Shown here in pieces: positions 15,809-34,292 of a DNA stretch of 35,200 nucleotides (position 1 is its first letter; each line of letters starts with the position of its first letter). The notes under the pieces are model-generated. The model saw only the letters and a program-made list of their open reading frames with translations, was not told the origin of the DNA and did not search any database. The DNA is taken from positions 1 through 35,200 of the forward strand of contig JABWCM010000024.1 in assembly GCA_013360285.1 (NCBI GenBank), read 5' to 3'. A program made the position numbers and the translations under genes. The DNA is from Myxococcales bacterium (GTDB lineage Bacteria; Myxococcota_A; UBA9042; JABWCM01).

Positions 15809-17680
15809 CTATTTGAGATCCTTAAACTTCGTCATGATGTTTTTTGCCTGAAACTGGTTGATTGTCACGATCTGCTGAGCCCAGTCTACCTCGGATGTCG
15901 CAATGGCATAGTTGTCATTCTCTTTTGTACTTTCGCTGATAAGCAGTTCGTGTGTTGTTCCCGATTTCATTGTGACCAAGACACGGAAGGCCGTTTCTGT
16001 CAGTCCGGCTTCCTCGCGTGTCATGTCGCCGACAAACGTTCTGGCTTGGAGGTTAGTTAACGAGTTCAGCATGGTATTTAATGCTTGCTCTTTGGGTTTA
16101 TCGACGATCTCGGTTCCGCGTTTGGCCAAAAATGGTGTGTCCGTGCCAGTAGAAGCGGGATTTCGCTCGATCACATAACTCTCGGCGGCAGAAATCACTT
16201 CCACCTTATCGATGTCGTCTTTTACAAGGTCAAAAATCTGTTTGTTACGAAAGTCGTCTGCGGTTTTGCCGACGAATTTTTTCGCCATAAACGATGTGAC
16301 TTTCCAAATTTCATCTGGTTTTGTGTCACTTTGAGCCCAATGAGAACCGTCTCGTTCTTCGCCGATTGTGAGGCGAACGTCTCCGCGACTTGTGCGAAAG
16401 ACAATTCGAGTGGCAGGTGCTGCTGGTCCTAAGCCTTTTGCCTCCAATTCAAGGGGTTCTGCGAATTCTGAGACAGTCCACGTTTCTATATCCCGCAGCA
16501 GTGCTTCTATTTCCGTTTTCCCAACCTTGTATGCGTTTGCTGGGTCGAAAATCCACTCCTCACCACTGCGTACAAGTCCAAACCCGGAGGTTTCAAAACG
16601 GACACTCTGGATGTCTGGTCCTTGAAACGACAACACGTTTTTCTGGCGTAAGTCATTGACTGTTTTCTTAAGACTATCAGCAGTGTATTTGTTCAGCGCA
16701 AACACTTCGTCGCCGTCTCCCAACATCGCATAGGTCTTTTCACCTTCTGTGTTGCCGAGCTTTAATTCAAAGGTTTTTCCATCAAACAGCTCTGCGCGAA
16801 CGACGGTTGGATTTGCTGATAGCCCGGTGTCTTTACCTTCAACGGAATCCAGATACTCGCTTACGCGCACACCCGCAATTGTGCCGGCGAGTGCGTCGAT
16901 TGTGCCGGCTTCAAATCCCTCCGGTTTGACAAATACCCACTTTGCGACTCGGGCTGATTCTTTGTCCTCGCCTTCTTTTGCATCTGGAGCTGGTGGTGGC
17001 GCTTTGTCCTCGAGTACGATTTCCGGGTGGGTTTCGTTGGCGGGATTTCGTATCTCGACTCGGCGGATTTGATCCCGTTCAAAATCAAACAATTTCTTTG
17101 CTCGAAGATCACTTGGTGACACATCGAAAGGACTGTTGAGGTCTTTGCCCCCAACCAGGAAAATGGTTTGTTCGTCGGCCGCCAACACCCAAGTGTCGAC
17201 ATTGTCCGGACCGCTTTCCAAGTCGTCGTCTGATTCCTTTTTACCGGCGATAAATGACCCCAGCAAAGCACTATCTCGATAATACTCGACTTTAATTCGT
17301 TCGTCCTTTGCCAAGCCATAATCGGCTAACTCAGATTCAACTACGGACTTGGAAAATTGGCTCTCGCTCGGCGTTTGTAGAGGCAACATCATCGTACGGA
17401 TCCGGAATTCCTCTACCTTGGACTCCTTCGGCGCCTTCATGCGCCAAGTTTCTCCGTCGCGCTCCAAAACCGTCGTGACACCTTTGCGTTCAATGACAAT
17501 CTTGGTGAGGCCATTTAGTTTGACCTCGCCGCTGCTCTTGGTGGCGACTTTTGGGTCCTCAAGAAACCCCGGGAGCGACAGCGACGCTGGTTGTGTCGGT
17601 TTCGTTGTGTATTTGATGTACAATACAGTTGCCAACAGCGCAACGAATAGTCCCAAAACCATCAACGTTTTTGTGTTCAT
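15809..17680 (-). CDS. DUF4340 domain protein, membrane anchored, in Gld-type ABC operon
   Basis: The product is 623 residues. One N-terminal membrane helix (~5-23) is followed by a large presumably periplasmic part. The DUF4340 pattern recurs about three times, each copy containing a DLR(A/Q)KK- or DFRNK-type motif followed by a strand that leads into a VE- or VRFE-containing segment. DUF4340 proteins are commonly encoded directly after GldG-family genes. Their role is not established; a periplasmic partner of the transporter is the usual inference. ATG 17680 has AAGGAG 7 bases upstream. It lies 19 bases after the GldG-family gene and is last in the operon; repeat B follows its stop. Confidence 0.85.
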   Translation of the reverse strand: MNTKTLMVLGLFVALLATVLYIKYTTKPTQPASLSLPGFLEDPKVATKSSGEVKLNGLTKIVIERKGVTTVLERDGETWRMKAPKESKVEEFRIRTMMLPLQTPSESQFSKSVVESELADYGLAKDERIKVEYYRDSALLGSFIAGKKESDDDLESGPDNVDTWVLAADEQTIFLVGGKDLNSPFDVSPSDLRAKKLFDFERDQIRRVEIRNPANETHPEIVLEDKAPPPAPDAKEGEDKESARVAKWVFVKPEGFEAGTIDALAGTIAGVRVSEYLDSVEGKDTGLSANPTVVRAELFDGKTFELKLGNTEGEKTYAMLGDGDEVFALNKYTADSLKKTVNDLRQKNVLSFQGPDIQSVRFETSGFGLVRSGEEWIFDPANAYKVGKTEIEALLRDIETWTVSEFAEPLELEAKGLGPAAPATRIVFRTSRGDVRLTIGEERDGSHWAQSDTKPDEIWKVTSFMAKKFVGKTADDFRNKQIFDLVKDDIDKVEVISAAESYVIERNPASTGTDTPFLAKRGTEIVDKPKEQALNTMLNSLTNLQARTFVGDMTREEAGLTETAFRVLVTMKSGTTHELLISESTKENDNYAIATSEVDWAQQIVTINQFQAKNIMTKFKDLK

Positions 17681-17699
17681 GGTGTCACTCCTTTGTAAC

Positions 17700-20138
17700 T
17701 TAAACTGAAAGGCGGCTCTTTCTGGATTTACGTACGGCCATTGCCCCTACTCCAAAAAGCACAAACAGAAACGGGACGCCGATGATATTCGCGTACTTGG
17801 TGATGCTCTGTGTTGTCTCGGTCACGTTTTTGAGCGGCCGGTGTAGGTACCCTTTAGAGCGGATTTGAACCAGCGCATCGTTTTGCACTCCCCAATCCAT
17901 GATGTTGAACAATAAACGCAGGTTATCCTCAACCGTCTCGCGGATTTGTGTGATGCGCAGTTGCCAGTTCTGGTATTTTGCCTGGTAATTTTGCAACTCG
18001 TTAATAAAGTTCATTCCACCTTGCGCGACTTTGGACATGTCGAAACCTGCCAGTATATCTTTGGCGTTGATTCCGCCGATGCCGAGATTTGACGCGATCA
18101 CCAGGATACGTATCGTTCCCTTTTCGACGATTTTACGTGCTTTGTCCTCATCCGCGGCTTTTTTCTTGTCTTCTTCGGTTGCGTCTTCTGCTGTTGGTTT
18201 TGTTGGAATTGTCTTGCCGACAAATGCACTTGCAGCTTCGCCGGTAACCAGGACGGCAACTGGAACGACACCGGTTGCTTGAGAGGATCGGGCGATGTTG
18301 ATGGTTTCGGGCGGAAGAAGTGGAAGACCTCCGGATGAGATGCCGGCGGCGTCACGGACAACGGCGTTTGCCGACGACTGTACCAGTACGTCTGCCGTAA
18401 CCCCTGGTTGTTTTTGTGCGTCGATGCGAATGCTCGAAACATACGGCAGTGTTAGATTATCGACGCCGCGTAACAGCACATGCTCACTGTTAAGGTTATC
18501 GAAGGAAGGTAAGAGAGGATAGGGAAAAGCCCTCTGAGTCTGCCACCGAAGCCTGCTGTTGGCGGGACCGGTTGTGACAGTCAATACGATCGGATCGTGG
18601 CTCACCGGCTCCATGATCAGGTCGTTTTGAATCGTTATACCAAAATGCGTAAGGAAATCATTGAGGTTGTGCGGGTTTTCGGTGATGGCTGTATATTCCA
18701 TGTCCGGTTCATCGCCAAGATTCGCACCTGGTTTGATGTTCAGCACCGAGATGTCCCACACGTTGGACAGAACCACAATGGATTTGCCCCTCATTGCGAA
18801 CTGATCTAATTCAAAGAGTTCACGGTCGTTTAACTTCTGTGTCGGTCCAAACAGAACCAAGGCTTCGATATCGTCTGGAACTTGGTTGTTGAGATCGATC
18901 TTGGCGATATCAAATCCGTTTCGCTTAAATAAGTTCTGATTAATACCTTGATTGATTTGATTGATAATTTGTTCGATTTGTTGGGCCTGCCCGATGATTT
19001 GTTGCGTCATGGGGTTGTTCTGACCCAACAAAGCGGCCATCTCGGGGCGCACCAACTGTTCGTCGTTGGCAAAGGGGCAAAATTCCCCGTGTCCGCATAC
19101 GAAGCCGATTCGTTTCTGGCCGGGGCTGTTTACGAGGTTGTTGTGGTCGTTGTCGACTTCTTTGAATACGGTATCAATAACAGTACGCAGCTCGGTTGCA
19201 ACGGTGGCATCAGCAGCCTCGGTGGAGTCCAGCGCTTTGAGAAAAGCGTCCAGGGTTTCCATGAACTGGTCGATGTCGCCCAACAGTATCTCTACGTATT
19301 CATTTTTGTGTTTGCGGAGATCGGCGTTGTGCGCCGCCATTTTGTCTTTTGCAAGTTGACATGATTTTTCAATTTCGGGCTTTTTGGACCGCATTTCCGT
19401 AATATCTTTGGTGCGTTGTTCTGCCGCAGCCATTAGGCCTTTCAGCCCGTCTTCTCCCCCGTCTGCATCATCTTTTACCGTGGCCTGCACAGCTTTGTTG
19501 CATGATTCCACTGCGTCAAAGACTTCTTTTCCTTTCGACAACATGTCTTTCATGAGAAGGCTTTTCTCGTACTTGTCTTTCAGTCGGACCAAGATTTTCG
19601 TGATGTCGAACTCAAATGTGGCCGGGTCGATAGCCAGTGGATAAACCTCTTTTACGTTTTTGTAGTGGAACGTTGCCCCGAGTGCGTAGCGTTCGAATTC
19701 AAGACGCCCTTTGTCGACTTTTGCTTCTTCGCTTGTAAACAAGGTGAGTTTCGCTTTTTCGGCTTCAGCTTCGACGTTGTCGGTAACATAAGATATCGAC
19801 ATTCTGCCGTCGGAAAACGCTTTGTATTCCTCAAGTATGTCACGCAATTTCAGGTCTGCGCCTCGAAGGGTTCGATTTTGGCCATAACCCAGTTTCACAG
19901 AATCCGGAAGCGGCTCCGAAATAAAAACTCGGACGGTCAAATCATCTAACGCCTGCACAGCCGACTTCGAAGCTTCGCTCAACGTGTGTATCTTGTTTTG
20001 GGTGAGATCCGCCCGAGCGAAAAAATGCGGTGCCACAAAAAAGTTGATGAGGATCAGGATGCCAATAGCCGCCAGCAGCGTGATTAGCGCATTGGAGCCC
20101 GAAATTATTCGAGATTTTTTGTCCACTTGTTTTGCCAT
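17700..20138 (-). CDS. GldG-family ABC transporter auxiliary protein with coiled-coil insertion
   Basis: The product is 812 residues. A membrane helix at ~17-36 is followed by the GldG/ABC_transp_aux N-terminal pattern (FFARADLTQNKIHTLSEAS, with the conserved R/D/L/T). The second domain begins at KRIGFVCGHGEF (~342). A final membrane helix lies near 785-803, followed by a basic tail. Between ~188 and 340 is an extra Lys/Glu-rich, probably helical insertion with Cys213 and Cys260; C348 and C354 flank the GHGE motif. A second Lys/Glu-rich linker lies near 640-680. ATG 20138 is chosen because GGGAGG lies 10 bases upstream; the frame runs open 312 bases further but overlaps the permease. GldG works with GldA and GldF in Bacteroidota gliding; here only an analogous envelope transport role is inferred. 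Confidence 0.88.
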   Translation of the reverse strand: MAKQVDKKSRIISGSNALITLLAAIGILILINFFVAPHFFARADLTQNKIHTLSEASKSAVQALDDLTVRVFISEPLPDSVKLGYGQNRTLRGADLKLRDILEEYKAFSDGRMSISYVTDNVEAEAEKAKLTLFTSEEAKVDKGRLEFERYALGATFHYKNVKEVYPLAIDPATFEFDITKILVRLKDKYEKSLLMKDMLSKGKEVFDAVESCNKAVQATVKDDADGGEDGLKGLMAAAEQRTKDITEMRSKKPEIEKSCQLAKDKMAAHNADLRKHKNEYVEILLGDIDQFMETLDAFLKALDSTEAADATVATELRTVIDTVFKEVDNDHNNLVNSPGQKRIGFVCGHGEFCPFANDEQLVRPEMAALLGQNNPMTQQIIGQAQQIEQIINQINQGINQNLFKRNGFDIAKIDLNNQVPDDIEALVLFGPTQKLNDRELFELDQFAMRGKSIVVLSNVWDISVLNIKPGANLGDEPDMEYTAITENPHNLNDFLTHFGITIQNDLIMEPVSHDPIVLTVTTGPANSRLRWQTQRAFPYPLLPSFDNLNSEHVLLRGVDNLTLPYVSSIRIDAQKQPGVTADVLVQSSANAVVRDAAGISSGGLPLLPPETINIARSSQATGVVPVAVLVTGEAASAFVGKTIPTKPTAEDATEEDKKKAADEDKARKIVEKGTIRILVIASNLGIGGINAKDILAGFDMSKVAQGGMNFINELQNYQAKYQNWQLRITQIRETVEDNLRLLFNIMDWGVQNDALVQIRSKGYLHRPLKNVTETTQSITKYANIIGVPFLFVLFGVGAMAVRKSRKSRLSV

Positions 20139-20161
20139 GATCCAACTTCCTCCCGTTGTGT

Positions 20162-20911
20162 TTACGCCTTCCACTTGCGGCTTTGAAGTGAATAGGTCGA
20201 CAGAAGCACCGCCAAGACGATTAGGGATAAGAAAAACACCAGATCGCGTGAATCGATTATTCCGCGCGAGATGTTCTGGAAGTGATATTTGAAGCTGATG
20301 AGGTGGAGGGTCTCGCGTGTGCTTTCCCAGGCGGCCCCGATTAAGGTATCGACAAAGTAAAAGCCGGCGCAGATCAAGACACCCAGAAGAAATGCTACGA
20401 TTTGGTTTTTGGTCCATGTGCTGGTCATCAGCCCGATGGCGCAATAACACGCACCCACAAGCAACAGACCGAAATAACCACCAATAATCGGACCTGTGTC
20501 GGGGTTTCCAAGCATGTAGACGGTAACAACATAGGGCAGGGTAAGCGCGAGTGCGACTATTAAAAACATCAACGCGGCAAGGAATTTGCCAAGAATAACC
20601 TCGTGGTCCCTTACAGGAAGCGTAATGAGTAACTCCATGGTTCCGCTGCGTTTTTCGTCGCTCATCAACCGCATGGTGATCGCGGGTAGGAACACGACAA
20701 ACAACAGCGGAACGCCTTCAAACAGCACTCGAAGGCTTGCTTCGTTGGCTTCAAAGTAGTCTGTCGCGCTTGCGTAGGGATCTATGGTTAACCAGCCGAA
20801 AAAGAACTGAAGGCCGGTGAGTACCAGAAATACCGTGATGGCGATGTACGCGATAGGTGAGCTGAAGTAACTCATGAATTCGCGTTTTCCGATGATCCAA
20901 ATCTTCTGCAT
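20162..20911 (-). CDS. ABC-2 type transporter permease (GldF-like)
   Basis: The product is 249 residues with about six membrane helices. It opens MQKIWIIGKREFMSYFSSPIAYI, the classic GldF/ABC-2 start, and keeps the MRLMSDEKRSGTMELLITLPV signature after the second helix. It forms the membrane channel of the exporter powered by the upstream ATPase. The start is ATG 20911, with GAGGAG 6 bases upstream; the open frame extends to 21031 but runs into the ATPase gene. The GldG-family gene starts 23 bases after its stop. The exported substrate is unknown. Confidence 0.9.
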   Translation of the reverse strand: MQKIWIIGKREFMSYFSSPIAYIAITVFLVLTGLQFFFGWLTIDPYASATDYFEANEASLRVLFEGVPLLFVVFLPAITMRLMSDEKRSGTMELLITLPVRDHEVILGKFLAALMFLIVALALTLPYVVTVYMLGNPDTGPIIGGYFGLLLVGACYCAIGLMTSTWTKNQIVAFLLGVLICAGFYFVDTLIGAAWESTRETLHLISFKYHFQNISRGIIDSRDLVFFLSLIVLAVLLSTYSLQSRKWKA

Positions 20912-20955
20912 ACGTGTCTCCTCGTGGGACGACCGGTGCCCAGTCAGTGCGTCGC

Positions 20956-21906
20956 CTATACGGCCTGAGTAAGTTTGCGAAAGATGCCTTCCAGATCGAG
21001 TGAGTCCCGCCGAAGTTCGACCACTGTCCATCCTTCATCAACGGCCAAATTGAAGATGTCGGGCCGAACGTCTGTGCCAATGTCTGATTGAATTTCGAAC
21101 CGAATCGATTTGCCGGCGCCTGGTGCCACGGCCACGGAATGAACATGTGTGATTCGACTCAGGCGATGGCGTGCAGCGTCCTGGTCCATCGGACTGTTTT
21201 CCGGTTGAGCGACTTGGAGAAGCACCCGCGCTTCTCGGGCGGCTGAAGCTTCCAGTTCGGCCGGTGTGCCGTCGGCGACGATGTTGCCTTGATGGATGAT
21301 GAGTAGGCGGTCGCACGTTTGGAGTACTTCCGGAAGGTTGTGAGTAGAAAGTATGATGGTGTGGTTTTTTCCTACTTCCTTGATTAACGTACGAATCTCG
21401 ACGATCTGATTCGGGTCGAGCCCGCTTGTCGGTTCATCCAAGATCAATATTTGTGGTTCATGGATCATCGCTTGCGCAAGACCCACGCGTTGTTTTTGCC
21501 CCTTTGACAACGTGCCAATTTCTTGGCCAATGAATTTGGTGGCGCCACATTGTCGGGTGATTGTTGCAATACGATCATGGCGACGGCTTTTGGGAATTTC
21601 CCGCATTTCAGCGACGTACTGCAGGTAATCGTATACGATCATGTCGGAATACAGTGGAGTCGACTCGGGTAGGTAGCCGATTTTTTTTCGCACTTCGACC
21701 GGATTGTCATACACGTCATGCCCATCAACGGTGACCGACCCCGCGGTTGGTGACATGAAGCACGTTAGGATTTTCATCGTCGTGGTTTTCCCTGCGCCGT
21801 TTGGCCCAAGGAATCCGACGATTTGTCCCCGTGGGACCTCAAATGAGATCCCTCGTAGGGCTTGGAAGTCTCCGTAGGATTTCTGTAGATTGGCAACTTT
21901 TATCAT
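20956..21906 (-). CDS. ABC transporter ATP-binding protein (GldA-like)
   Basis: The product is 316 residues. Walker A is GPNGAGKT (34-41), the Q-loop region is GYLPES (~77-82), the signature LSKGQKQRVG starts at 133, Walker B ILILDEP ends at E158, and the switch His lies in ILSTHNLPEV. A ~90-residue C-terminal extension (from ~225) resembles the DUF4162 tail of drug/GldA-type ATPases. It drives the ABC-2 permease. ATG 21906 has GAGGGG 6 bases upstream. It is first in the operon ATPase-permease-GldG-DUF4340, with intergenic gaps of 44, 23 and 19 bases, so the four products are probably made together. Confidence 0.93.
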   Translation of the reverse strand: MIKVANLQKSYGDFQALRGISFEVPRGQIVGFLGPNGAGKTTTMKILTCFMSPTAGSVTVDGHDVYDNPVEVRKKIGYLPESTPLYSDMIVYDYLQYVAEMREIPKSRRHDRIATITRQCGATKFIGQEIGTLSKGQKQRVGLAQAMIHEPQILILDEPTSGLDPNQIVEIRTLIKEVGKNHTIILSTHNLPEVLQTCDRLLIIHQGNIVADGTPAELEASAAREARVLLQVAQPENSPMDQDAARHRLSRITHVHSVAVAPGAGKSIRFEIQSDIGTDVRPDIFNLAVDEGWTVVELRRDSLDLEGIFRKLTQAV

Positions 21907-22045: not shown

Positions 22046-22147
22046 ACATAGCCCACTTCGTGCTTCCAGACGAAAAACGTTCGACAGTCAAATCCACGGC
22101 CGCTTCGGTCATGTTACCCACAAGCTCGTGAGAGATGTGGGCTATGT
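22046..22147. repeat. MITE-like 102-bp element with 11-bp terminal inverted repeats
   Basis: ACATAGCCCAC (22046-22056) and GTGGGCTATGT (22137-22147) are perfect 11-bp inverted repeats bounding 102 bases. A second hairpin, CCCACA/TGTGGG, lies inside the right end. It has no coding capacity. Its right end encodes the final residue and the TAG stop of rsmI, which suggests insertion into or at the end of that gene. I see no clear target duplication. Confidence 0.5.
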
Positions 22148-22969
22148 GTCTGTCTGCAGCGCATTGGTAAGTGATTTTACTAAGTTGATGGATTCCTTTC
22201 TAAAGTAGGCGGTAGCGATTGCCGCATCTCTTCGGCTGAGTCCTCCTGCGAGCAATGCACGCAGGTCGTTTTGGATTTCTTCTGTGCCGGGAGAGTCGTT
22301 CCTAGTCGTGAGATTGAAAACAACTGTTGCTTCTCCACGTAGCGCGGTTGGAGCGATGCACATTTGACTTGCTAATCCCCGATGAAACGTCTCATACACT
22401 TTTGTCATCTCCCGGGCCACAACAACGTGTGCGTCTGGCCAAACGCCGGCTACGGCGTTCACAAAGAGCTGTGCATCTCTGCCCGGCACGTAGGCGATGT
22501 AAGTGCCCGAATATCTTACGCGTTCGTGGAGCCACCTCGTTAATTTACCGGGTTTCTTTGGAGCAAAGCCGATAAAATGGAAGGGTTCCGGAGGTAATCC
22601 CGATGCGATCAGTGCGGTGATTGCTGCATTTGGTCCGGGAATGGGCTCTACCACAACGCCGTAAGCAATTGCCTGTCGAACGAGTGCAAATCCCGGATCG
22701 CTGATCAGGGGTGTTCCTGCATCCGAAACGAGGCCTACGTGTTGCCCCGACCGTATTCGTTCGATCACTGTTTCTATTCGGGTGTGTTCGTTGTGTTCGT
22801 TCAGACTCAGGATTTCTTTTGCGGAAATCCCATGCGCGGTGAGTAATGCTGCCGTGTGGCGGCTGTCCTCTGCGCAAAGTAAATCGACGATACGTAGCGT
22901 TTCCAACGCACGAAGTGTGATGTCCTTTAAGTTACCAATTGGCGTGGGAATAATAGAAAGCCGTGACAT
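22142..22969 (-). CDS. rsmI: 16S rRNA (cytidine-1402-2'-O)-methyltransferase
   Basis: The product is 275 residues. The TP-methylase fold is marked by IPTPIGNLKDIT at the N-terminus, the LCAEDSRHTAALL segment, the SAM-binding loop LVSDAGTPLISDPG and PIPGPNAAITAL. RsmI uses S-adenosylmethionine to 2'-O-methylate C1402 in the ribosomal decoding centre. ATG 22969 is the natural start: MSRLSIIPTPIGN fits the family, and it lies 8 bases after the stop of the giant TPR gene. The open frame continues upstream to 23137 but overlaps that gene. There is no strong ribosome site, so coupling with the TPR gene is likely. The stop codon lies inside the MITE-like element, so the last residues may differ from relatives. 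Confidence 0.92.
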   Translation of the reverse strand: MSRLSIIPTPIGNLKDITLRALETLRIVDLLCAEDSRHTAALLTAHGISAKEILSLNEHNEHTRIETVIERIRSGQHVGLVSDAGTPLISDPGFALVRQAIAYGVVVEPIPGPNAAITALIASGLPPEPFHFIGFAPKKPGKLTRWLHERVRYSGTYIAYVPGRDAQLFVNAVAGVWPDAHVVVAREMTKVYETFHRGLASQMCIAPTALRGEATVVFNLTTRNDSPGTEEIQNDLRALLAGGLSRRDAAIATAYFRKESINLVKSLTNALQTDT

Positions 22970-22977
22970 AGTCTCGA

Positions 22978-25900
22978 CTAGGGTTCGATCTGGATGCCGA
23001 GTGCCTGCCGAAGTTCCTGGTATTTCGGGCTGACAACAAATACCACGAGGTCTTTGGCCTGATCCTTTACCGGAAGTTTGGCAAGGGAGAAAATACCCGA
23101 CTTCAGGGCAGCGAGCGCAGCACCGACATCGTTGCACATCAACATGCCTGCATGGTTTCCGGTTAGTTCGACGTTGTTAAGCCATTGGCTTAAGTTAACA
23201 TCAGTCTTACTTGCTCTTTCCAGCAGTTCGGTTAGCTGTTCCCTCCGGCCTGGAGACAGGTTGCGACTGATTTCCGTTGCAAGTGCGGTGACTTCCGGCG
23301 AATCAGGAAGGTTCATTTTTGGTAAAGCGACTTTCATTGCCGCCACGAATAACGTTTTCAGTTCGGGCCGTGTGTAAATCGCCGCCATGATGTGCACAGG
23401 CAAGAAGTAAGTTAAGCACTTCCCGATCAGGAATGCCAACTCTACTTCATTACGCCCTTTCAGCATGTCCGCACCAATAACTATCGCTGGAGGACTGAGA
23501 TTTTCGATGCGGATTCCCAATTGTCGCGGTGAAACATAGATTTTAGGCTCCGTGACACCAAGTGCCTTTGTTATCTTAACAAGTACATTTGCAAACATGG
23601 TGCCGTCATCCAGCGACATCTGGTCTTTCTTTTTGAGATCCAAGTCTTTCAGCGTTGTCGCGCGAAGCTCGTTACCCAGCGCCTCATACAGAATCTGGAA
23701 AATTTGCCCAATGAGCACATCCCCGGAATCCGCAAATAGGTTTGTTTGCCAAAGTTTGCTGTCAAGAGGGCGCCTGGCGTTGGCCATCTTCGGTTCGGCA
23801 TACTCTCGGTAGAAACGTTGAAATTCATCGTCCGCTGGTGCCAATGCGGCGATAACCCCAGCCGTGCACCATGCGCTATCTAAGTCGTCTAACTCTCGCT
23901 GCAAACGGAATAATGCTCGATAGCTGCCGATTCGTTTGTCGGGTTCCAAAAGAATCAGATGACGATGCGCGGCAATTGCACGTTCTTTGGACCCCGACGA
24001 AACTTCGTGCAACTCAGCCAAGATCTCATAGACCGCGGTATCGTTGGGTTTACGTTCTGCCGCGAGTTGGAAAGCCGAAGCCGCGTATTCGTAGTCTTTG
24101 AGGCGGGTTCGGTATATTTCGCCTAGCCCGCGGTACAACTTGTACTCCAGGTCATGCATCCCGCGGTTTGCAATTCGTTCTAACATACGCCGGTACGCAC
24201 GCTCTTCTTCCTTCCATGCTTTTTTGCGAGTCCATAATTCGTCTAGCGCTCGAAAAGCCTCCAGACGGTTCGGATCGAAATCCAGCGTTTGGTCAAGGTA
24301 ATGCGCTGCCTGGTCCTCGTCATTCAGTTCGTCTCGGTATACCGCGGCCAGCATGAAACTGTAGTTGGCTTTGGTTTGTGGATCATCTTCACCTTCGAGG
24401 AGTTGTTGCAGTGTATCGATTGCCTCCGTAAAGTCGCGACGTTGCAGAAACACTTCGAGCAGCTTCACAAGGGCTGCTTTCGAGTTTGGTTGTGTGTCGA
24501 GTGCGTCTCGCCAAGCCGACACGGCGCCGTTGATATCGCCGAGCTTTTCCTTGTAAATGTCGCCGATTTCTAACTGCAATGCCAGTTTTTCGATTGAATC
24601 GGCCTTTAAGCTGACAATTTCCTGCTGGTAACGTACGAGGTCCGACCACATTTCGTTGTCACGCGCGATCTGAATCAGGTTCGACAACGCGTCACTGTCG
24701 TTGGGGCGCAACTCAACTACTTTTTCGAGATATTCGATTGCTTTCGTGTCACGGTTGGTTGTAACTGCAATTTCCCCCAAAGCCATGTAACAGTCAGCCA
24801 ATTCTGCATCACCGGCTTCGTGTCTGATGCGCTCAACCAATTCGAGATAATAACGTTCCGCGTCGTCGTAGCGCTCACGTTTTAGGTTCAACCGCGCCAA
24901 ACCGCGCAGAGTTGGGACGTGATGTGCGCGTCGTTCGTATGCCGATGAGTATGCACTCAGGGCAGCTTGAGTGTCTCCAAGGCTTTCTTTGCTTCGACCG
25001 ATAAGATAGTACAACTCCGCGGCTTTTTCGGGATCTGCTTCGGATTGAACCTTACCGACCATCATAGACAACAACGGTTCTGCTCGTGCCCAGTTTTCCT
25101 GCTTGATGTAGATTTCGGACAACGGCACGGCCGCTTCCGGAAAATCCGGGACTCGTTCAAGTGCCCGTTCGTAGTATTCTACCGCGTGGTGCACATCAAG
25201 CAGGCGCTCTCGGTAGACTTCAGCAATTCGAGAGAGGGTGGATGCCCGCAGTTCGTCGGAAGTGTGGAGTTCCTCCTCTTTCAGCAGTGCGTTGACTACC
25301 TGTTCCCAGTCGTTGGTTGCCGCGTGGACCTGTTGTAGCGCATGGACCGCCGTTAGGGATCGTGGCGCTTCCGTTAGCGCGCGATCCAATTCCGACACCG
25401 CGTCTTCGGGTGACAACATCTTTTCGGAGTAGACCTCCGCCTTTTGGCACCGCAAGGCTGTGCGTTGTTCACCGCTCGCCGTTTCCAATTTGCGGTCGAG
25501 AACAAAGATGACCTGTTCCCAGAACCCGTTATCGCGGTATAGCTGCTCCAGGGCATCCAGCGCTGAAGCATGGGTGCGATCAATGTCCAAGATGCGTTCG
25601 AACGTTCGAATCGCGTCGTCTAGGTTCATGACCTTGTCACGATGGACCGTCGCCATTCGTGTAAGCAAAACGGTTCGTGCCTGATCGCTGGATGCGACCT
25701 CGATGTGACGCTCCAATGTTTGCACTAGATCGTTCCACTGCTCGACCTCTTCGTAGATTCGTTCGAGGTTCGCGAGGGCGTTTTCATCCATTGGATCGAT
25801 GTTCAAGATTTCGTGAAAATAGTCGGCTGCTTTGAGTTTGTTGCCGAAAATTTCTTCCTGAACCAGCGCAATCTTTTCGCAAAGCCCCTTTTTGCCCTCA

Positions 25901-28900
25901 TCCGAATCAGTTCCTGCCAGCAAACGCTCGTATACTTGTACCAATCCATCAAAATCGTTGCGTTCTCCATAAAGTCGCTCCAATTCGCCTAACGCGTCGG
26001 CGTTAATCGGATCGACCTCCAATACGCTTTCATACGCTTCGATCGCCTTTGTTGCGTCTCCCAACTTGTCGAAGTAGGTGGTTCCGATCCGCAATCGATA
26101 CGAAAGTTCGCGATCCGGATATACTCTGCCCAACATCTCCAGGATCTCGATCAGTTCAGGCCACTGCTGGCGCGATTCATAAAGCCGTTCCAGGGCGACG
26201 AGCGCTTGATGCTCCATCTCATCCAGATCGAGAACGGCACGATACGCCTGAATTGCAGCTTCGGTGTCGCTGAGTTGTCGTTCATAGACGTCGCCGATAC
26301 GAACCGCCAGGCGAGTTCGTTCGTGGTAGTCGGCTGTAACGTCGGCCAACGAGCGTAATGCGGTGATAAGTTTGGGCCATTGCTCAAGCAGCGTATATAA
26401 CTCAACCAGTGCCTTAAGTGCCTCTTCGTGATCGTCTTGAAGTTGGAGAACGGTTTCAAATTGGACAACCGCATCTTCCAGATTGTCGACCTCGTCGCGG
26501 ACAACGACACCTAACCGGAATCGGTAGTCTGCCTGAAGCAACGGATCTGTCATCCGTGGAATAACCTCGCGCCAGACGGCCGCCAAGTCCTGCCAAGCGC
26601 TGATTTTTGCCGCTATTCGCTGCAATTCGGTCAAAGTATGAATATTCTCCGGGTCATCGTGTACAGCACGCTGTAAGACCAGGAATGCCGCGTCGTTGTC
26701 AGTAAGTTTCGTTTCGTAAACACGGGCAAGGTTTTGTAAGATAAGGACCCTATCAACTGCATCGGGCGTGTGGTCAACACGTGTCAACAGGAGTTCACTC
26801 AATTCCGTCCACTTATCACCGGATTCATAAATGCGTTCGAGTTTTGCTCCTGCTTCGAAATTTGCCGGATTCCGATGCAAAATAGCCTCATAAGTAACCG
26901 CTGCTGCACCGGCATCGTGCAGTTTTTCGAGTTGCAGCTCCGCAAGCTGCATTTCAATATCTGTCGCTTCTTCGGATTGACCCTGTTCGTGCCGTAGTGC
27001 CGATTTTCGACGTAGGGTGTGTGCTGTGTCGCTCCACCTGGATTCCGAAGAATACAAACGCTCAAGCATCTCCAACGCCCGTTCATTTGCGGTATCCAGG
27101 CGCAGAACCTCCTCCCATGCCTCAATCGCACCGATGGGCTGTCCGAGCACGTCTAGGCGCAATTCCGCCAGCTCGATCCACAGGTCGCGTAACGCGTCTC
27201 CAGAAAACGAGTCCGTAAGCACTAGCCGTTCCAAGATATCGACCAACGGCTCTAATGCAGATGCGTCGCGGTAGATCTTACGAAGGCTCACCAGAGCCTC
27301 CTGGTCATCCGGTGCCGATGCCAAACACTGTTCCCAATGATGCTGCGCAGAAAGAGGATCGTTTAATACATCACGCCATAACCGGCCGAGCTTACGGTGA
27401 ATGGCTTGGCGGCGTTCTACTTCGGAATCAGACAACAAGGACAATTCTCGGTCCAAGGCCTCCGCTAGAGCGTCGTTTTTGTCCAGATTCTCAAGAATTC
27501 GCTGTTGTTCCGCCAGTGCCGAACGTCGAGTTGGGTCAAGAAGCAAAATCTCTTCCCACAACTCTGCCGCTTCGTTGGGTTTGTCGAGCTTCGTCTCTGC
27601 CAACCACGCCATACGTTCGAAAAGAACGATTCGTTCTTCGACGGTAGGAACCAGTGCGGACAGTTGACGGTAGGTGCCAAATAGGGGTTCCCAGTCGTCT
27701 TCACCGGCTTCGTATATGTCGGCAAGAGCACGTAATGCAGGCATGTCGCTGTCGTTGATGTCCAAAATAGCCCGGAATGCAGCAATTGCCTCGACGCGGT
27801 TGTCGAGTTTGTCGCGATGTAATGCGCCTAGTCGTGCCAAAAGACGAATACGATCATCGTCGTAGTCCGCACCGGAGATTTCCCGACGCAGGATTGGTTC
27901 CAAGGCATCGTAACTGTTGCCCGCCGAATAAATTTCGTCCAAGGCGATAAGCGCATGGCGGTTTTCTTCATCCAACTCAAGAATCTGCAGAAGCAACAAC
28001 TCTGCTTCCGTTTCCGCCGAGAGTTTTTCCCGGTAAATCACTACCGCGCGGTGCCACAATGAGATGCGTCGTTCGACGTCGTTGGTGAGGTCGGCTGCAC
28101 GCAGAAGAATTGTTGCAAAATTACTCCACTCGTCCGTTAACTCAGCAAGCTCCTCCAGTTTGGCCAGGACAAAATCGTCTTGCGGATCAATACAAAAAGC
28201 CTCTCCGTACCAACGAATTGACTCGTCCGGTTTGTCCAGCTTGTCCAGATTCAGATCCGCCAACCGGCGCATTAAATCGCCTTTGTCCTGCGGGTCTTTT
28301 GTCTCTTGTAGACGGATTTCGTACAATGAGTGTAACGATCTCCACGCTTGCCGATCGAGGTACACCGGCTCCAATATCTCGGCGATTTCTGCTCGATGGT
28401 GACCCGCCTCACAAAGTCTCCATAATTCGGAAATAGCCTCGTCGTTACCTGGAGACAGGTACAGCGTTTCTCGGTAAGACTCAAACGCAATTCCGGGATT
28501 GGCGAGATGATCTTCGGCGATTTGAGCAAGGCGGAAATACAACGATACCTTTTCATCAACATTGTTTGTCTGCTCGATTTCCGCGCGCAGAACATTCGCT
28601 AGTTTCGGCCACGCCTCCGATAGCTGGTACAACTCATCAAGGGCCTGCAGTACGACCGTGTTGTGGGGATGGTCCGCCAACAACGCCTCATAACGTTCAA
28701 TTGCCCGGGGTGCGTCACCGAGATGATCTTTCAAGATTGCGGCGACTCGAAGTCGAAGTTCCAATTCTCGGACTGGATCACCCAGAGTTTTTGTTGCCGC
28801 AGTGAACAATCCCTGCAACTCTTCGTAGAATCCGTTTTCCGCGGCCAACCGTTCAAGCTCTTTCGAAACCGCCATATCGTTGGGGTCTTCCCGAAATGCT

Positions 28901-31900
28901 TTGGCATAACCTTCGAACGCCAGCTTTTTATTGCCAAGTTGATGTTCCGCCAACTCGCCCATACGTCGCAGTAACTTTATCTTACCGACAGAGTCGTCGC
29001 GCTGCTCCACCATAAAGGAGTGAAGGTCATATAAACGTTGGTGTTGATCGGAGATTTCCAGTACTGGAACCAGCGCTTCGAACGCCACTTCCCGTTCGTC
29101 TTTGCTGAGAATAACGTTTTCTAGGGCGTTGATCGTACGTTCGTCGTCGATGTGGTTTGCCAATAACAAACGGTACGCGTCAACAGCTTGGTAGTTATCA
29201 TTTAGTTCGTTTTCCCAGATTTGCCCGATGCGAAACTGGATATCCGCCCATTCTGCAGGTGATACCAGAGGTTGAATCCGTTTGAGGGTATCAAGGAGGT
29301 CTAACCAATCAGATTTCTGGGTGAAAAGCGCGTCCAGGCCCCGTAAAGCGTCAAGATCGTCGTTCTTCCACTCCAAGATCATTCGGTAGGAATCCACAGC
29401 GTCATCAAGATCGTCGAGCTGAAGCTCAAAAACCTCCGCGCGCTGAATCGCCAGCGACTTTTTGGCATCGAAATCACTCCCCGCTAAATCGATTTTGCGA
29501 GCGAGGACAGCCACTAGTTGTTCCCAACGTTCGACTCGTGCGTACAAACTCTCGAGGGCGTTGAGAACACTTTCGTCGTCAGGACTGATTTCCTGCACAC
29601 CTTCGTATAGGTCGATCGCTTGTTCTGGTTGATCGAGTTCTGCCGCGGAAATCCGACCAGCCTCCTTCAGCAATTCCGACTTTTCGTCAAAATTTAGCAC
29701 GAGAGTGGCCTTCTGTCGTAGTATTTCAACGAGTTTCGACCATTCTCTGCTGTTGCGATACAACCGCAACAACGCGTCAATAGCTGGCATGTCGCCGGGC
29801 TCAAGATCCAAAACCGCTCGATAATGTTTGATGGCCAACTGCGAGGACACCGATTTTTGATCAGCAACCTCCGCAACAATTCGATGGATTTCCCTCTGCT
29901 TTTGTGGCTCGGTCACTGTGTCGACAGACGCGGCAAGTAGTGCAACCAGGTCAGAGTGATTGCCAAGAACATCTGCCAGGCGGAGTAATTCGACGAGTGT
30001 GTCGTCGTGAGCCGGGAGGGTCTGGTACGCAGAGCCGTAATATAAGAACGCTGACTCCGGATCACCGCCTTTGCTTTCGTACAGTTCCGCAATGCGGAAA
30101 TCCAACGCTACGCGAGTTTGTGGGTCCTGGCTTGCTTCTTTTTGTACTTCGTAAATGTCCACTAACTTAAGCCATTCGTCATGGCGCCGATAATACGGCT
30201 CAAGCAGTGCAGCGACCGCGACGGCTTGAGTTCGAGCTGCAAACAGACGCTCCAATGCCGCAACTGTTTTTGTATTGTCTGGGTCGATCCCGAGAATCAT
30301 TGCGTGGATATCAATGGCGCCGGTTATGTCGTCCAGCCGACTTTCCCGGGTGCTCGCGAGTCGACCCAGCAACTCAACTCGCTCGACGTCATTGTTCGCT
30401 AGGCGTTCCAGCTCTTGCAGGGTCGCGGCAAGCTCGGTCCATCGTGCGCCCTGCGAATAAAGATATTCAAGGCGTCGGTGCGCAGAAACGCGATCTCGGT
30501 CGATATCGAGAATTTCGTTTGCTGTAGCGATTGCCTCATCCAGATTATTTAGTTGGTTCGACCAAATCTGTTCAATTCGAAACAAATAGTCGATTTTTTG
30601 TTCAAATTCGGATGCAAGATCCACTTTGCGCCGGTAGATAGCTAGCAGGTTTTGCCACTGCTCTGTTTGTCCGTAGATTTGCTCCAACGGATCCAAAGCC
30701 CCGGAATCAGTCGGATCCGCTTCGAGCGCAAGTTCATAATGAAGCTGTGCGTTCTCGAGTACCTCAAGTTTTTCTCGGTAAGTGGACGCGATGGTTAAGC
30801 GGATTTCCCGCTGTAACGTTGGATCCTCGACAGCATCCACTTTCGACTCATACAATTCGATAAGTGGATACCAGTTTTCAATGCTTTCCGCTAAGTCTTC
30901 AAGTTGTTCCCGTACACCGGTACTGCTCGGATCGAGCAAAAATATCCGCGCGTGGCTTCTAAACGCCCGAAACTCGTCGCTTATGCGATCACGATACAGT
31001 TCACCCAAGCCCTGCAACAACCCGATTTTGTCGGAGGCGTCGGTACAATAACCCACCTGCAGTTCGTAGATATCAGACAGGCGCTCCCAATCTCCCCGGC
31101 GCCGATAGACAGGACCAAGAATGTTGGTAATCTGTCGCTGTATTTCTGTTGCGGTGATCAACTCTTCGAGTGACTTACGCGCTTCATCGGAATCCGGGTC
31201 GCTCTCAAGTGCCTCGCTTAAGTGATGAACAACAGTCTCTAAATTTCCTCCTGTTGCGTAAGTTAGCTGCGCTAGTTGGATGTGTACCGCGGCAAGTTCC
31301 TGCGGGGGTGCTGTGATGTCGGAATTCAACAGCTCGAGTTCTTTACGAAGAACAGAAAGCAGTCCATCGTAGTCTTCCTCGATTAAATAAAGTGCCGAAA
31401 GCTCCCGATGAACCCGCGCGTCGTCTGGAAAACGCGCCAACAGCTCTTTTAAGACATTGGCAGCTTCTTCGTTGTTGCCGAGTTTGTCGCGCCATACCGC
31501 CCCTAACTTAAACAGCACGTCCCGCTCTTCTTCTTCGTGTTGTGCAAGTTGTCGTTTTCGTTTGTAAACTTCAACGAGTAACCGCCAATCCTCCATTTCT
31601 ATGTACAATCCTTCGATTGCATCCATTGCCCGGTGATTTTCCGGGTCAAGAACGATAGACATTTGAAAGTGGCGCAGCGATTGATTCAAATCGCCGACGT
31701 AGTCCCGATACACTTCGGCGGCGCGAAGCTGGGCTTCCAACTTCACGTTTGTATCTGAAATACGAGGAATGGTGTCTTCCAGCACAGCAACGTATGTATC
31801 CCAGTTGTCACTTAACGCACACAAACGTTCCAACTCACGTCGGCTGCCTTCGTCGTCAAAGTTCTCTTTGTAAACTTGGACATAGCTGAAAAGTGCTTTT

Positions 31901-33732
31901 TCTGGGTCGGAGAGTGCATCCTCATACAATCGGGCGAGTTCCAACAACAGGTTTTGTCGTGATGTTGGGTCGGACTCGTCAGCGAGTTGAATTTCAAGGA
32001 CTTCCGCCAGTTTGTTCCATTCCGCCTCATCTCGGTAGAGGGGGGCCAATCGACGGGCGACTTCGCCGTTTTGGGGATCGATCGCAAGTGCTTGTTCCAG
32101 CGTCTTGATCGCTTTCTGTGGTTGTTGCTGCTCGTGAATCAGGAGTTCTGCGCTCTTAAATAAGAGACCGATTTGATCCTCTGGTTTTTCTAGTGTTTTG
32201 ATTTGTGCGTCGAGTGTGCGCACCAATTCGGCGACAGTCCCATAACGGCGGTAAAACCATTCCAAGCCGTCCCAATCACGAGCTGCGAGATAGTGCTTTC
32301 TGAGTTCGTTTTGGGCTTTTCGATGGTCGGGTTGGTCTTCGAGAATACGTTTCCAAACCTGAGTTGCTCTGGTTTCATCTTCAAGGCGGGCAGAAATAAC
32401 CAAACCCAACTTCTCGAGCAGCGCGACTCTATCGGCCGAATTTTGAGTGATTTCTATGCGCTTTTCGAGGATATCGACTAGCTTTCCGTAGCTTTTCTCG
32501 CGTTCGTAGAGCGATTCAAGATTTTCGAGGGCTTCTTTGTGATGCGAATCGAGGGAAAGCATGTCTTCCCACAGCCCGATGGCTGCCGACGGCCGCCTGA
32601 TTTTGTCCGCCGCAAATCTTGCCAACTCCAGAAACTTCTTACGCCGATGTTCCTCGTTGGCTTCGAGGGCGACCTCCCGCCGGGCGATCTCCAGATAGTT
32701 CTCGTAATCTCGCCGTTTTTCGTAAATGTCCTTAAGCTGCTCAATCGCTTCACGGTTTTCTGTGTCCAACTCCAAAATTGCGCTATAGCTCTTCAAAGCC
32801 TCCGCGGAATTGGAGAAGCGCTCCATCATGATTTGGGCAACCTGCCGATGGAGTTTGATTAACTCGGATTTCTCTTTTGTGTGGCCGATTTTTTGTTGAA
32901 GCACTCGAACGAGGTCCGGCCATCGCTTCATTGCATTGTATTGTTCGACAAGTGCGTTCAACGCCGTCGAATTTCCTGGATCCAATTCCAGGATTGACTG
33001 ATAGGTCGCACTTACTTTGGTTTCGCTTTTGATGTGGTCGCGAAAGATTTCGATCATTTGGTCGTAGATCGCTATCTTACCGGCCACATCGGAATCTGCT
33101 TTGGTTTTTAGCTTTTCCTGAAGAAGTTCAATGAGGCTGTGCCACTTTTTTACTTCGATATAAAGGGAGGTAAGTGCTGTCTCCGCCTCTTCGTCGGCGG
33201 GGCGCAGTGCGCGTACGTCGGACCAGAACGCGATCGCTTTGTCGGGCTTGTCCGACTTTGAAGCCATGATGGCCAATTTTCGCTTAACCGCAGCCACCTC
33301 TTCCGGACTTTGAGGGTTATTGGCCTGTTCCATTGCGAACTGTTCTAGGCGCCGCCAGTTGCCGCGTTTGGCGTAGAATTCCAGGTAGAAATCGTTGTAT
33401 TCCTGCTCAAAACCCGCACTGTGACCTTCTAGACGGCGAAAATACAGCTCAGCTTTGTCGCTATTGTCCAGTTTTTTCCAATAAAACAACCCCAGATGCC
33501 CGTAAAGCAGCGTAGCAACTGCTTCGTTGTTGCAGGTTCTTGCCCGCAAGTCGACGGTACGCAAAAAAGGTTCGGGATCGACTTGGCCGCTATAGGTTTG
33601 GGCCAACTGGCGGTGTAGTTCGGTCAGCCCTTCGAGGTCTCCCGCGTCGGCGAGGGCGGCCTGGAGTTTCTCCGCGGCCTCAATGTTCCAGGGGTGCTGA
33701 GCCAGCGTTGCTTTTAGAACGGAAATGTCCAT
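22978..33732 (-). CDS. Giant TPR-repeat protein with unique C-terminal domain
   Basis: The product is about 3,584 residues, with no signal peptide or membrane helix, so it is probably cytoplasmic. From residue ~1 to ~3,320 it is a regular chain of roughly 42 units of ~72 residues. Each holds two helical-hairpin TPR-like motifs with the recurrent pattern AL..LE.LY....W..L...L, then a helix around a K-D-A-I..Y/W...L.LDP segment. The last ~265 residues are different, globular and hydrophobic, and contain EVELAFLIGKCLTYFLP, which sits where an M48-type metallopeptidase helix would be but lacks HExxH. Such chains act as scaffolds. ATG 33732 is preferred because GAGG lies 10 bases upstream; an ATG at 33741 is too close to it. 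rsmI follows 8 bases after the stop. Confidence 0.88.
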   Translation of the reverse strand: MDISVLKATLAQHPWNIEAAEKLQAALADAGDLEGLTELHRQLAQTYSGQVDPEPFLRTVDLRARTCNNEAVATLLYGHLGLFYWKKLDNSDKAELYFRRLEGHSAGFEQEYNDFYLEFYAKRGNWRRLEQFAMEQANNPQSPEEVAAVKRKLAIMASKSDKPDKAIAFWSDVRALRPADEEAETALTSLYIEVKKWHSLIELLQEKLKTKADSDVAGKIAIYDQMIEIFRDHIKSETKVSATYQSILELDPGNSTALNALVEQYNAMKRWPDLVRVLQQKIGHTKEKSELIKLHRQVAQIMMERFSNSAEALKSYSAILELDTENREAIEQLKDIYEKRRDYENYLEIARREVALEANEEHRRKKFLELARFAADKIRRPSAAIGLWEDMLSLDSHHKEALENLESLYEREKSYGKLVDILEKRIEITQNSADRVALLEKLGLVISARLEDETRATQVWKRILEDQPDHRKAQNELRKHYLAARDWDGLEWFYRRYGTVAELVRTLDAQIKTLEKPEDQIGLLFKSAELLIHEQQQPQKAIKTLEQALAIDPQNGEVARRLAPLYRDEAEWNKLAEVLEIQLADESDPTSRQNLLLELARLYEDALSDPEKALFSYVQVYKENFDDEGSRRELERLCALSDNWDTYVAVLEDTIPRISDTNVKLEAQLRAAEVYRDYVGDLNQSLRHFQMSIVLDPENHRAMDAIEGLYIEMEDWRLLVEVYKRKRQLAQHEEEERDVLFKLGAVWRDKLGNNEEAANVLKELLARFPDDARVHRELSALYLIEEDYDGLLSVLRKELELLNSDITAPPQELAAVHIQLAQLTYATGGNLETVVHHLSEALESDPDSDEARKSLEELITATEIQRQITNILGPVYRRRGDWERLSDIYELQVGYCTDASDKIGLLQGLGELYRDRISDEFRAFRSHARIFLLDPSSTGVREQLEDLAESIENWYPLIELYESKVDAVEDPTLQREIRLTIASTYREKLEVLENAQLHYELALEADPTDSGALDPLEQIYGQTEQWQNLLAIYRRKVDLASEFEQKIDYLFRIEQIWSNQLNNLDEAIATANEILDIDRDRVSAHRRLEYLYSQGARWTELAATLQELERLANNDVERVELLGRLASTRESRLDDITGAIDIHAMILGIDPDNTKTVAALERLFAARTQAVAVAALLEPYYRRHDEWLKLVDIYEVQKEASQDPQTRVALDFRIAELYESKGGDPESAFLYYGSAYQTLPAHDDTLVELLRLADVLGNHSDLVALLAASVDTVTEPQKQREIHRIVAEVADQKSVSSQLAIKHYRAVLDLEPGDMPAIDALLRLYRNSREWSKLVEILRQKATLVLNFDEKSELLKEAGRISAAELDQPEQAIDLYEGVQEISPDDESVLNALESLYARVERWEQLVAVLARKIDLAGSDFDAKKSLAIQRAEVFELQLDDLDDAVDSYRMILEWKNDDLDALRGLDALFTQKSDWLDLLDTLKRIQPLVSPAEWADIQFRIGQIWENELNDNYQAVDAYRLLLANHIDDERTINALENVILSKDEREVAFEALVPVLEISDQHQRLYDLHSFMVEQRDDSVGKIKLLRRMGELAEHQLGNKKLAFEGYAKAFREDPNDMAVSKELERLAAENGFYEELQGLFTAATKTLGDPVRELELRLRVAAILKDHLGDAPRAIERYEALLADHPHNTVVLQALDELYQLSEAWPKLANVLRAEIEQTNNVDEKVSLYFRLAQIAEDHLANPGIAFESYRETLYLSPGNDEAISELWRLCEAGHHRAEIAEILEPVYLDRQAWRSLHSLYEIRLQETKDPQDKGDLMRRLADLNLDKLDKPDESIRWYGEAFCIDPQDDFVLAKLEELAELTDEWSNFATILLRAADLTNDVERRISLWHRAVVIYREKLSAETEAELLLLQILELDEENRHALIALDEIYSAGNSYDALEPILRREISGADYDDDRIRLLARLGALHRDKLDNRVEAIAAFRAILDINDSDMPALRALADIYEAGEDDWEPLFGTYRQLSALVPTVEERIVLFERMAWLAETKLDKPNEAAELWEEILLLDPTRRSALAEQQRILENLDKNDALAEALDRELSLLSDSEVERRQAIHRKLGRLWRDVLNDPLSAQHHWEQCLASAPDDQEALVSLRKIYRDASALEPLVDILERLVLTDSFSGDALRDLWIELAELRLDVLGQPIGAIEAWEEVLRLDTANERALEMLERLYSSESRWSDTAHTLRRKSALRHEQGQSEEATDIEMQLAELQLEKLHDAGAAAVTYEAILHRNPANFEAGAKLERIYESGDKWTELSELLLTRVDHTPDAVDRVLILQNLARVYETKLTDNDAAFLVLQRAVHDDPENIHTLTELQRIAAKISAWQDLAAVWREVIPRMTDPLLQADYRFRLGVVVRDEVDNLEDAVVQFETVLQLQDDHEEALKALVELYTLLEQWPKLITALRSLADVTADYHERTRLAVRIGDVYERQLSDTEAAIQAYRAVLDLDEMEHQALVALERLYESRQQWPELIEILEMLGRVYPDRELSYRLRIGTTYFDKLGDATKAIEAYESVLEVDPINADALGELERLYGERNDFDGLVQVYERLLAGTDSDEGKKGLCEKIALVQEEIFGNKLKAADYFHEILNIDPMDENALANLERIYEEVEQWNDLVQTLERHIEVASSDQARTVLLTRMATVHRDKVMNLDDAIRTFERILDIDRTHASALDALEQLYRDNGFWEQVIFVLDRKLETASGEQRTALRCQKAEVYSEKMLSPEDAVSELDRALTEAPRSLTAVHALQQVHAATNDWEQVVNALLKEEELHTSDELRASTLSRIAEVYRERLLDVHHAVEYYERALERVPDFPEAAVPLSEIYIKQENWARAEPLLSMMVGKVQSEADPEKAAELYYLIGRSKESLGDTQAALSAYSSAYERRAHHVPTLRGLARLNLKRERYDDAERYYLELVERIRHEAGDAELADCYMALGEIAVTTNRDTKAIEYLEKVVELRPNDSDALSNLIQIARDNEMWSDLVRYQQEIVSLKADSIEKLALQLEIGDIYKEKLGDINGAVSAWRDALDTQPNSKAALVKLLEVFLQRRDFTEAIDTLQQLLEGEDDPQTKANYSFMLAAVYRDELNDEDQAAHYLDQTLDFDPNRLEAFRALDELWTRKKAWKEEERAYRRMLERIANRGMHDLEYKLYRGLGEIYRTRLKDYEYAASAFQLAAERKPNDTAVYEILAELHEVSSGSKERAIAAHRHLILLEPDKRIGSYRALFRLQRELDDLDSAWCTAGVIAALAPADDEFQRFYREYAEPKMANARRPLDSKLWQTNLFADSGDVLIGQIFQILYEALGNELRATTLKDLDLKKKDQMSLDDGTMFANVLVKITKALGVTEPKIYVSPRQLGIRIENLSPPAIVIGADMLKGRNEVELAFLIGKCLTYFLPVHIMAAIYTRPELKTLFVAAMKVALPKMNLPDSPEVTALATEISRNLSPGRREQLTELLERASKTDVNLSQWLNNVELTGNHAGMLMCNDVGAALAALKSGIFSLAKLPVKDQAKDLVVFVVSPKYQELRQALGIQIEP

Positions 33733-34292
33733 GTGCGGCATGCCTCAAAGGTTGGCTCTCAAAAGCCGGTCGGATTGAACGGGCGGAGCTGCTGTTTTTA
33801 GTTGTTCTGGCGAATTTCCAAGTCCGTATCAATTCAATCGTGTCGTGGCTTTGTATTACGTGTCGTCACGCCAAGATCCCGAACCGTGGATTGGGATTCA
33901 GTGCTTTCGGCGAAACACTCTGTTTTTCCGAGGAGCACCTGTTTTTGTAACACCAGTTAACATTACTGAGTTGTTTACCCGATAGCCAACGTATCACGTG
34001 GTTGTCGGCGCTTCGTCTGACTTGCCTTCGGTCTAACCCAAAGGCCGCATCGTTATAGCATAGGAAAAACAGGGCAACAAGCCACATGTTCTGTGCATAA
34101 TACCTTTAAATTACAATTGGTTGTGGAGCAATGAGGAGCTGGATTCGTTTCATGCCGTCGAAAATGGCGAATGGAGTTCTGTACGACGGGTGTTTTCTTT
34201 GGAACTACGAGTGGCGCAATAGACGATCTCGACAAACTCAATGGATTTCCGGCAGAATGTTATAATGATAGGTGAAAATAGTTCGCATATGA
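33733..34292. other. Intergenic region upstream of the giant TPR gene
   Basis: About 560 bases between two leftward genes. I see no convincing promoter, RNA gene or repeat. A perfect TATAAT at 34261-34266 has no matching -35 and faces away from both genes. Two short minus-strand frames (33866-34087 and 34053-34241) lack ribosome sites and family resemblance. The TPR gene must be transcribed from somewhere here. Confidence 0.5.

Follow-up and report, generated by a model that had tools for sequence, protein, structure and literature searches.

The window, that is, the whole stretch of DNA analysed here, is a whole contig of 35,200 bases. Its minus strand carries the gene of a giant tetratricopeptide repeat (TPR) protein, followed by rsmI, with these features:

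22142..22969, minus strand: rsmI, encoding 16S rRNA (cytidine1402-2'-O)-methyltransferase (TIGR00096, 190.7 bits against a cut-off of 167.9)
22978..33741, minus strand: giant TPR protein coding sequence (supported by collinear orthologues that are 3,577-3,671 aa long)
22981..23784, minus strand: predicted pseudo-M48 (gluzincin-like) C-terminal domain (CTD), about residues 3320-3587 (model, structural matches and profile matches)
23167..23169, minus strand: E3525, at the putative place of the third zinc ligand of M48 peptidases, with ExxxD changed to ExxxN (register with M48 relatives)
23407..23421, minus strand: putative degenerate HExxH site, KCLTY, residues 3441-3445, where HELGH of M48 relatives aligns (alignment registers)
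23911..33279, minus strand: 42 TPR-pair units of about 72 residues each, residues 155-3277 (position-specific model and Pfam TPR families)
24103..24285, minus strand: conserved block in the TPR pair preceding the CTD, residues 3153-3213, ...WTRKKAWKEEERAYRRM...LGEIYRTR (dense invariant columns)

The stop codon of the giant gene (TAG) is followed by 8 bases and then by the ATG of rsmI. This gap and the TIGR00096 match confirm the statement of an earlier note made from the letters of the DNA (the sequence-only reading) that the two genes stand in line, 8 bases apart. The rsmI gene directly follows the giant in 18 of the 81 loci examined, the window's included; the other downstream neighbours form smaller clusters with no nameable theme. 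The adjacency to rsmI is no direct evidence on expression, which the sequence-only reading had suggested to be constitutive. Upstream of the window's giant lies a beta-lactamase-like gene and then the end of the contig, and many contigs of relatives also end early. Elsewhere in the window (15809-21906, minus strand), genes for a GldA/GldF/GldG-type ABC transporter are followed by one for a DUF4340 protein; the NCBIfam matches to GldA (327 bits) and GldF (216 bits) are both under their cut-offs, and the Pfam ABC_transp_aux match is over its cut-off.

Size, repeats and relatives of the giant

The giant has 3,587 aa when translated from the ATG at 33741 and 3,584 aa from the ATG at 33732. The latter codon has GAGG 10 nt upstream and gives a protein starting with MD, a start also seen in the mechanical open reading frames of four relatives (L052, L056, L063 and L068). 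The giant is a real protein of 411 kDa with a pI of 4.8, and hydropathy analysis revealed neither a hydrophobic N-terminus nor a clear transmembrane segment. Its maximum 19-residue hydropathy mean, located in the CTD, is 1.66, a value that does not speak for a membrane-spanning stretch in this copy. In the CTD region of two relatives the values rise to 1.85-1.92, and the maxima of the GltG- and GltJ-like proteins of the window's own genome are 2.2 and 3.2, respectively.

The repeats dominate the protein. Residue-similarity autocorrelation peaked at a lag of 72, the unit starts run from residue 155 to residue 3206, and 24 of the 41 spacings are exactly 72 residues. The 42 units share a mean identity of 19.6% and score 52-101 bits against a model built from the same units, that is, in-sample, whereas the maximum among 50 shuffles was 7.4 bits. 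Pfam TPR families match the giant over their cut-offs. An AlphaFold model of the last 698 residues (pLDDT 92.6) showed four helices per 72 residues, corresponding to pairs of TPR-like hairpins, and a solenoid that runs into the CTD; the closest structures to this model were YrrB (Z 18.3 over 191 residues), MamA (Z 17.2) and the TPR region of OGT (Z 16.9). The giant thus has the 34-residue helical hairpins, stacked in a superhelix, of a TPR solenoid, and the long superhelix of about 42 units described by the sequence-only reading was recovered by the unit count, the Pfam families and the model of the last 698 residues.

Within the window's class, we found 18 full-length copies, the window's included, with lengths of 3,577-3,671 aa. 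Identity to the window's giant ranges from 24.9 to 39.2% in the remaining 17; across all pairs of the 18, the median is 33% and the minimum 22%. Compared with the window's protein, insertions total no more than 47 residues and deletions no more than 33 in 14 of these 17, and the remaining three have 64-98 inserted residues, partly as a result of the mechanical choice of start codon. Because the length is conserved in relatives with few indels, it does not result from frame errors, which the sequence-only reading had named as a possible source of length variation and which we ruled out. A 4,291-aa open reading frame lies antisense to the giant gene of one relative (L058, 3679-16554, minus strand) and is probably a mere effect of base composition.

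The register of the units is also maintained. For eight relatives, unit identity in the aligned register was 24.5-40%, as against 11.6-17.9% one unit off. At this low identity, the best ungapped placement was collinear for 14 of the 42 units in L066, 28 in L068, 15 in L209, 11 in L268 and 19 in L224. Twelve giants of other classes, of which 11 stand behind gltG, have 3,351-4,216 aa and pair with 3,327-3,573 of the 3,587 residues of the window's protein; their large length differences are mostly N-terminal, near residues 3, 53 and 108, and few are internal. The fixed order of the units and the N-terminal location of most of the length change suggest that the units have individually conserved roles, so that the protein would seem to be a specific scaffold rather than a repeat array that grows and shrinks.

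The C-terminal domain and the M48 peptidases

No TPR unit falls within the last approximately 270 residues of the giant. A model of the CTD computed from an alignment of 55 CTDs had a pLDDT of 93.2 and a pTM of 0.89. The top VIA-align matches were Ste24p (Z 8.2, 179 residues, rmsd 8.0) and BepA (Z 7.8, 156 residues, rmsd 4.6), followed among others by BlaR1 (Z 7.6), ZMPSTE24 (Z 7.5) and minigluzincins (Z 6.4). The first 11 rows were all HExxH-type metallopeptidases, which we take to be of the gluzincin kind. The CTD therefore has an M48-type fold by Z scores that are moderate and that are supported by profile matches. The sequence-only reading had surmised such a core, and the confident model, its M48/M56-type top matches and the profile matches to M48 bear it out.

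In genomes without a better match, the CTD profile matched true M48 peptidases with E values of 1e-5 to 2e-4 per genome. We examined ten loci with such weak matches in nine genomes: five align in two separate segments in the correct order, three align in the second segment only, and two encode divergent CTD-type proteins. The five that align in two segments show the M48 signature; for example, ELEFIIGHELGHI of the M48 relatives pairs with elAFllakeLtll of the CTD profile, and AELSCDRAGLL pairs with velTanraGll. All four M48 relatives tested were over the PF01435 cut-off. The M48 peptidases at L193, L194, L196, L197 and L199 form a group that may represent the closest active relatives of the pseudo-domain; they have a motif of the HELGH type and a helix resembling W...AEL(S/T)C(D)RAGLL.

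That the CTD is a helical domain that resembles gluzincins and is no relative of M48 is very unlikely in our estimation. Such a reading would fit the Foldseek result, whose best match was weak (E 0.048), the Z scores of about 8, a range in which a common arrangement of helices is possible, and the hhalign comparison with 22 M48 domains, which gave the expected register weakly (probability 1.4%, P 0.035; P 0.14 with the alignment A1). Likewise, no Pfam family occurred in more than two of the 55 CTDs even at E<=1, PF01435 was not among the families listed for them at that level, the single Pfam match of the window's CTD (E 0.22) was taken as chance, and a PDB sequence search with the CTD alignment found no chain. 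However, the CTD profile reaches true M48 peptidases in two ordered segments with the HELGH-type motif and ExxxD in register, and the 11 best structural rows belong to a single type of enzyme.

The catalytic site has been lost. HExxH was found in none of 80 CTDs and nowhere in the window's protein, which has KCLTY at the place of HELGH; in most CTDs the motif is replaced by K/R-x-L-T/A-aromatic or aliphatic. In 49 of the 55 aligned CTDs, K or R occupies the place of the first zinc ligand, and the acidic place of the third ligand has D or E in all but one (54 of 55). We therefore rejected an active peptidase, and the peptidase fold with a lost HExxH proposed by the sequence-only reading stands. 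The CTD shares the core fold of the PF01435 family (BepA/YfgC, Ste24p and ZMPSTE24), with the HExxH and ExxxD helices in register, but CTDs of the window's type lack HExxH and are not matched by PF01435. On the structural matches, the profile matches in register and the loss of HExxH, the CTD is best read as a predicted pseudo-peptidase of M48 descent.

The glt genes and the candidate function of the giant

Among the matches listed, 63 giants lie outside the window's class, and 47 of them have a GltG-model match 0.8-3.6 kb upstream on the same strand. The genes upstream of the other-class giants are a TPR gene that is lipoprotein-like by its N-terminus and a gene with gliding_GltG as its best NCBIfam model, which scored 433-459 bits in three cases against a cut-off of 650. 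Besides an FHA domain, these GltG-like genes encode an AgmX/PglI C-terminal domain, whose match exceeds its cut-off. One contig (G052:C25, loci L267/L268) has the order gltD-like, gltE, small gltF-like, gltG, TPR lipoprotein-like, giant, gltJ, in which the gltD- and gltF-like genes were named by size and place only; its GltJ match was the best among 282 genomes. A second contig (G073:C83, locus L273) has the order gltF-like, gltG, TPR lipoprotein-like, giant, rsmI. Since its giant stands between gltG and rsmI, this contig bridges the glt arrangement and that of the window. All glt equivalog matches are below the curated NCBIfam cut-offs: none of 190 genomes passes that for GltG, and none of 282 passes that for GltJ.

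In the window's class, the DNA upstream of 13 giants extends over 3.7-7.5 kb and contains no gltG, by a search that found its positive controls. Five further giants of the class, the window's included, have less than 1.5 kb upstream and are uninformative on this point. The window's own genome carries such genes on other contigs. C101 has a gltD-like gene and genes matching GltE (98 bits), CglF (49 bits) and GltG (301 bits), with the equivalogs under their cut-offs, and its gltG precedes a TPR lipoprotein-like gene and a trypsin-like gene. C97 has a GltJ-like gene (113 bits, under the cut-off), and C213 has an ExbB-ExbD-ExbD-TonB_C cassette that resembles the AglRQS motor.

In Myxococcus xanthus, the gene order is given as gltD-E-F-G-H-I-J (PMC3169522; Luciano et al. 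2011). Table 1 of that paper describes GltI (AgmK, MXAN_4863) as a 4,132-aa protein with TPR only and without a signal peptide or transmembrane segment; its two listed TPR matches start at 3114 and 3186, 72 residues apart, and agmK/gltI was recovered in transposon screens for gliding defects (PMC3169522). A 2026 review terms GltI a 'large scaffold protein' that, with GltG, links AglQ to MreB (PMC13104615), and a 2012 paper cites AgmK within a complex that binds FrzCD and, in a survey with strict BLAST criteria, lists AgmK homologues in two myxobacterial strains only (PMC3447774). Published accounts of its location disagree: AgmK is described in one review as a 3,812-aa transmembrane protein (PMC9120999), and an AlphaFold model in another suggests that GltG and GltI may thread through peptidoglycan, which is stated there as untested (PMC12288465).

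We likened the giant to GltI by this published description. As described, GltI is a giant TPR protein encoded after gltG and before gltJ, and a relative of the window's protein fills that place in G052:C25. At 3,584-3,587 aa the window's protein is slightly shorter than GltI/AgmK (about 3.8-4.1 kaa) and is still of giant size, and by hydropathy it resembles GltI in its lack of a signal peptide or transmembrane segment. There are also differences. Whereas gltH, for a predicted outer-membrane barrel, lies between gltG and gltI in M. xanthus, the loci of the giants have the TPR lipoprotein-like gene there. In the window, rsmI follows the giant, and the genome's own gltG is on another contig. Because gltG and gltJ do not adjoin its gene, we term the window's protein GltI-type rather than GltI; this membership rests on gene order, size, the repeat and collinearity with giants in the place of gltI. 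The description in PMC3169522, as far as it covers GltI, does not mention a CTD, and our search of the open-licence PMC literature found no description of an M48-like domain in GltI. The giant is most likely a known protein whose far end seems to have gone unrecognised.

We consider it probable (about 0.7) that the giant serves the Agl-Glt (gliding transducer) machinery of Myxococcota as a giant cytosolic scaffold of the GltI/AgmK type. That machinery is the likely partner system of the giant, and it was missed by the sequence-only reading. The acidic superhelix would lie in the cytoplasm beneath the inner membrane, where it may gather the cytoplasmic parts of the machine, namely, the FHA domain of GltG, the zinc-ribbon N-terminus of GltJ, the AglRQS motor, and MreB with its adaptors. 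According to the model, the dead peptidase domain may bind but not cut a partner peptide in the cleft that once took the substrate, and such a grip would anchor the end of the solenoid.

A different history is unlikely but deserves consideration: the giant may once have been GltI and, in the window's class, have left the gliding machine for some other assembly in the cytosol, in which case rsmI would be a neighbour that is stable in place but unrelated to it. Such a departure would agree with the missing gltG upstream of all 13 informative class giants, with rsmI after the giant in the window and in nine further loci assigned to the class, and with a class length nearly fixed at about 3,587 when the other classes vary, mostly N-terminally. 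However, gltD-E-F-G-like, gltJ-like and motor-like genes all remain in the window's genome, and the collinearity of the window's protein with the Glt-linked giants extends almost from end to end.

BepA (YfgC) likewise combines a TPR solenoid with an M48-type domain; it is an active, periplasmic zinc peptidase with few TPRs placed after the peptidase domain. It is highly improbable that the giant is a BepA-type proteostasis factor acting on envelope proteins, since the shared combination of M48 and TPR and the high rank of BepA in the structural comparison of the CTD are set against a giant with no hydrophobic N-terminus, 80 of 80 CTDs devoid of HExxH, a reversed domain order, 42 units instead of a few, and relatives whose giants stand in the gene order of glt clusters.

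If the giant is an orthologue of GltI, a scaffold that had no partner to its name gains a candidate machine and a putative binding domain that lends itself to study. The family would then extend to Myxococcota groups for which metagenomes are the main source, with its units conserved one by one, and would end in a defined 270-residue pseudo-peptidase that is well folded in prediction and could be expressed alone. If M. xanthus GltI has the CTD, the least understood of the Glt proteins would gain the functional domain that it has lacked so far, and this domain would link the motor to its cytoplasmic track.

Other carriers of the C-terminal domain

The sequence-only reading had called the CTD unique to this protein, a view that we rejected: the domain occurs in 107 of 190 sampled Myxococcota genomes, often in several and in up to ten copies each, and a second copy in the window's own genome forms the end of an approximately 1,360-aa protein encoded on contig C97. 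The carriers are giants of about 3,350-4,200 aa, with a single frame of 4,677 aa, and shorter proteins, and Lujinxingia, Enhygromyxa and Plesiocystis are among them in the best 80 of 117 loci. The paralogues have about 500-2,260 aa and, in those inspected, carry the CTD at or near the C-terminus as the giant does, but they are far shorter and stand in different gene contexts. More tentatively, and with some doubt, we propose that the dead M48 domain serves for docking throughout the phylum, where it would cap a family of TPR scaffolds, the GltI-type giant being the largest, and may grip a partner peptide in its former cleft.

Among the relatives sampled, 22 genomes of one family of the window's class (f4) lacked the CTD, and 30 genomes of other families had it. 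Family f4 is apparently a natural loss of the CTD, or of the giant, within the class. The 190-genome GltG survey included 16 f4 genomes, which had GltG-model matches despite the missing CTD.

Other giant TPR proteins of the same class have no pseudo-M48 end; they are encoded at L284 (2236-13776) and L287 (2380-13857) on the minus strand and at L285 (2152-11244) and L286 (2258-11308) on the plus strand. These CTD-less giants have 3,825-3,846 aa, or 3,016-3,030 aa in family f4. Because this second kind of giant occurs in the class, the description 'giant TPR' alone is not diagnostic.

The gene of the own-genome paralogue (L033, 4578-9513; 1,359 aa) is convergent with an intact M48 peptidase gene (HEIGH), with 16 bases between them. 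Short paralogues of about 495-780 aa are encoded at L210, L211, L215 and L219; Ser/Thr protein kinase genes lie near those of L211, L215 and L219, and a BipA GTPase gene lies near those of L210 and L211.
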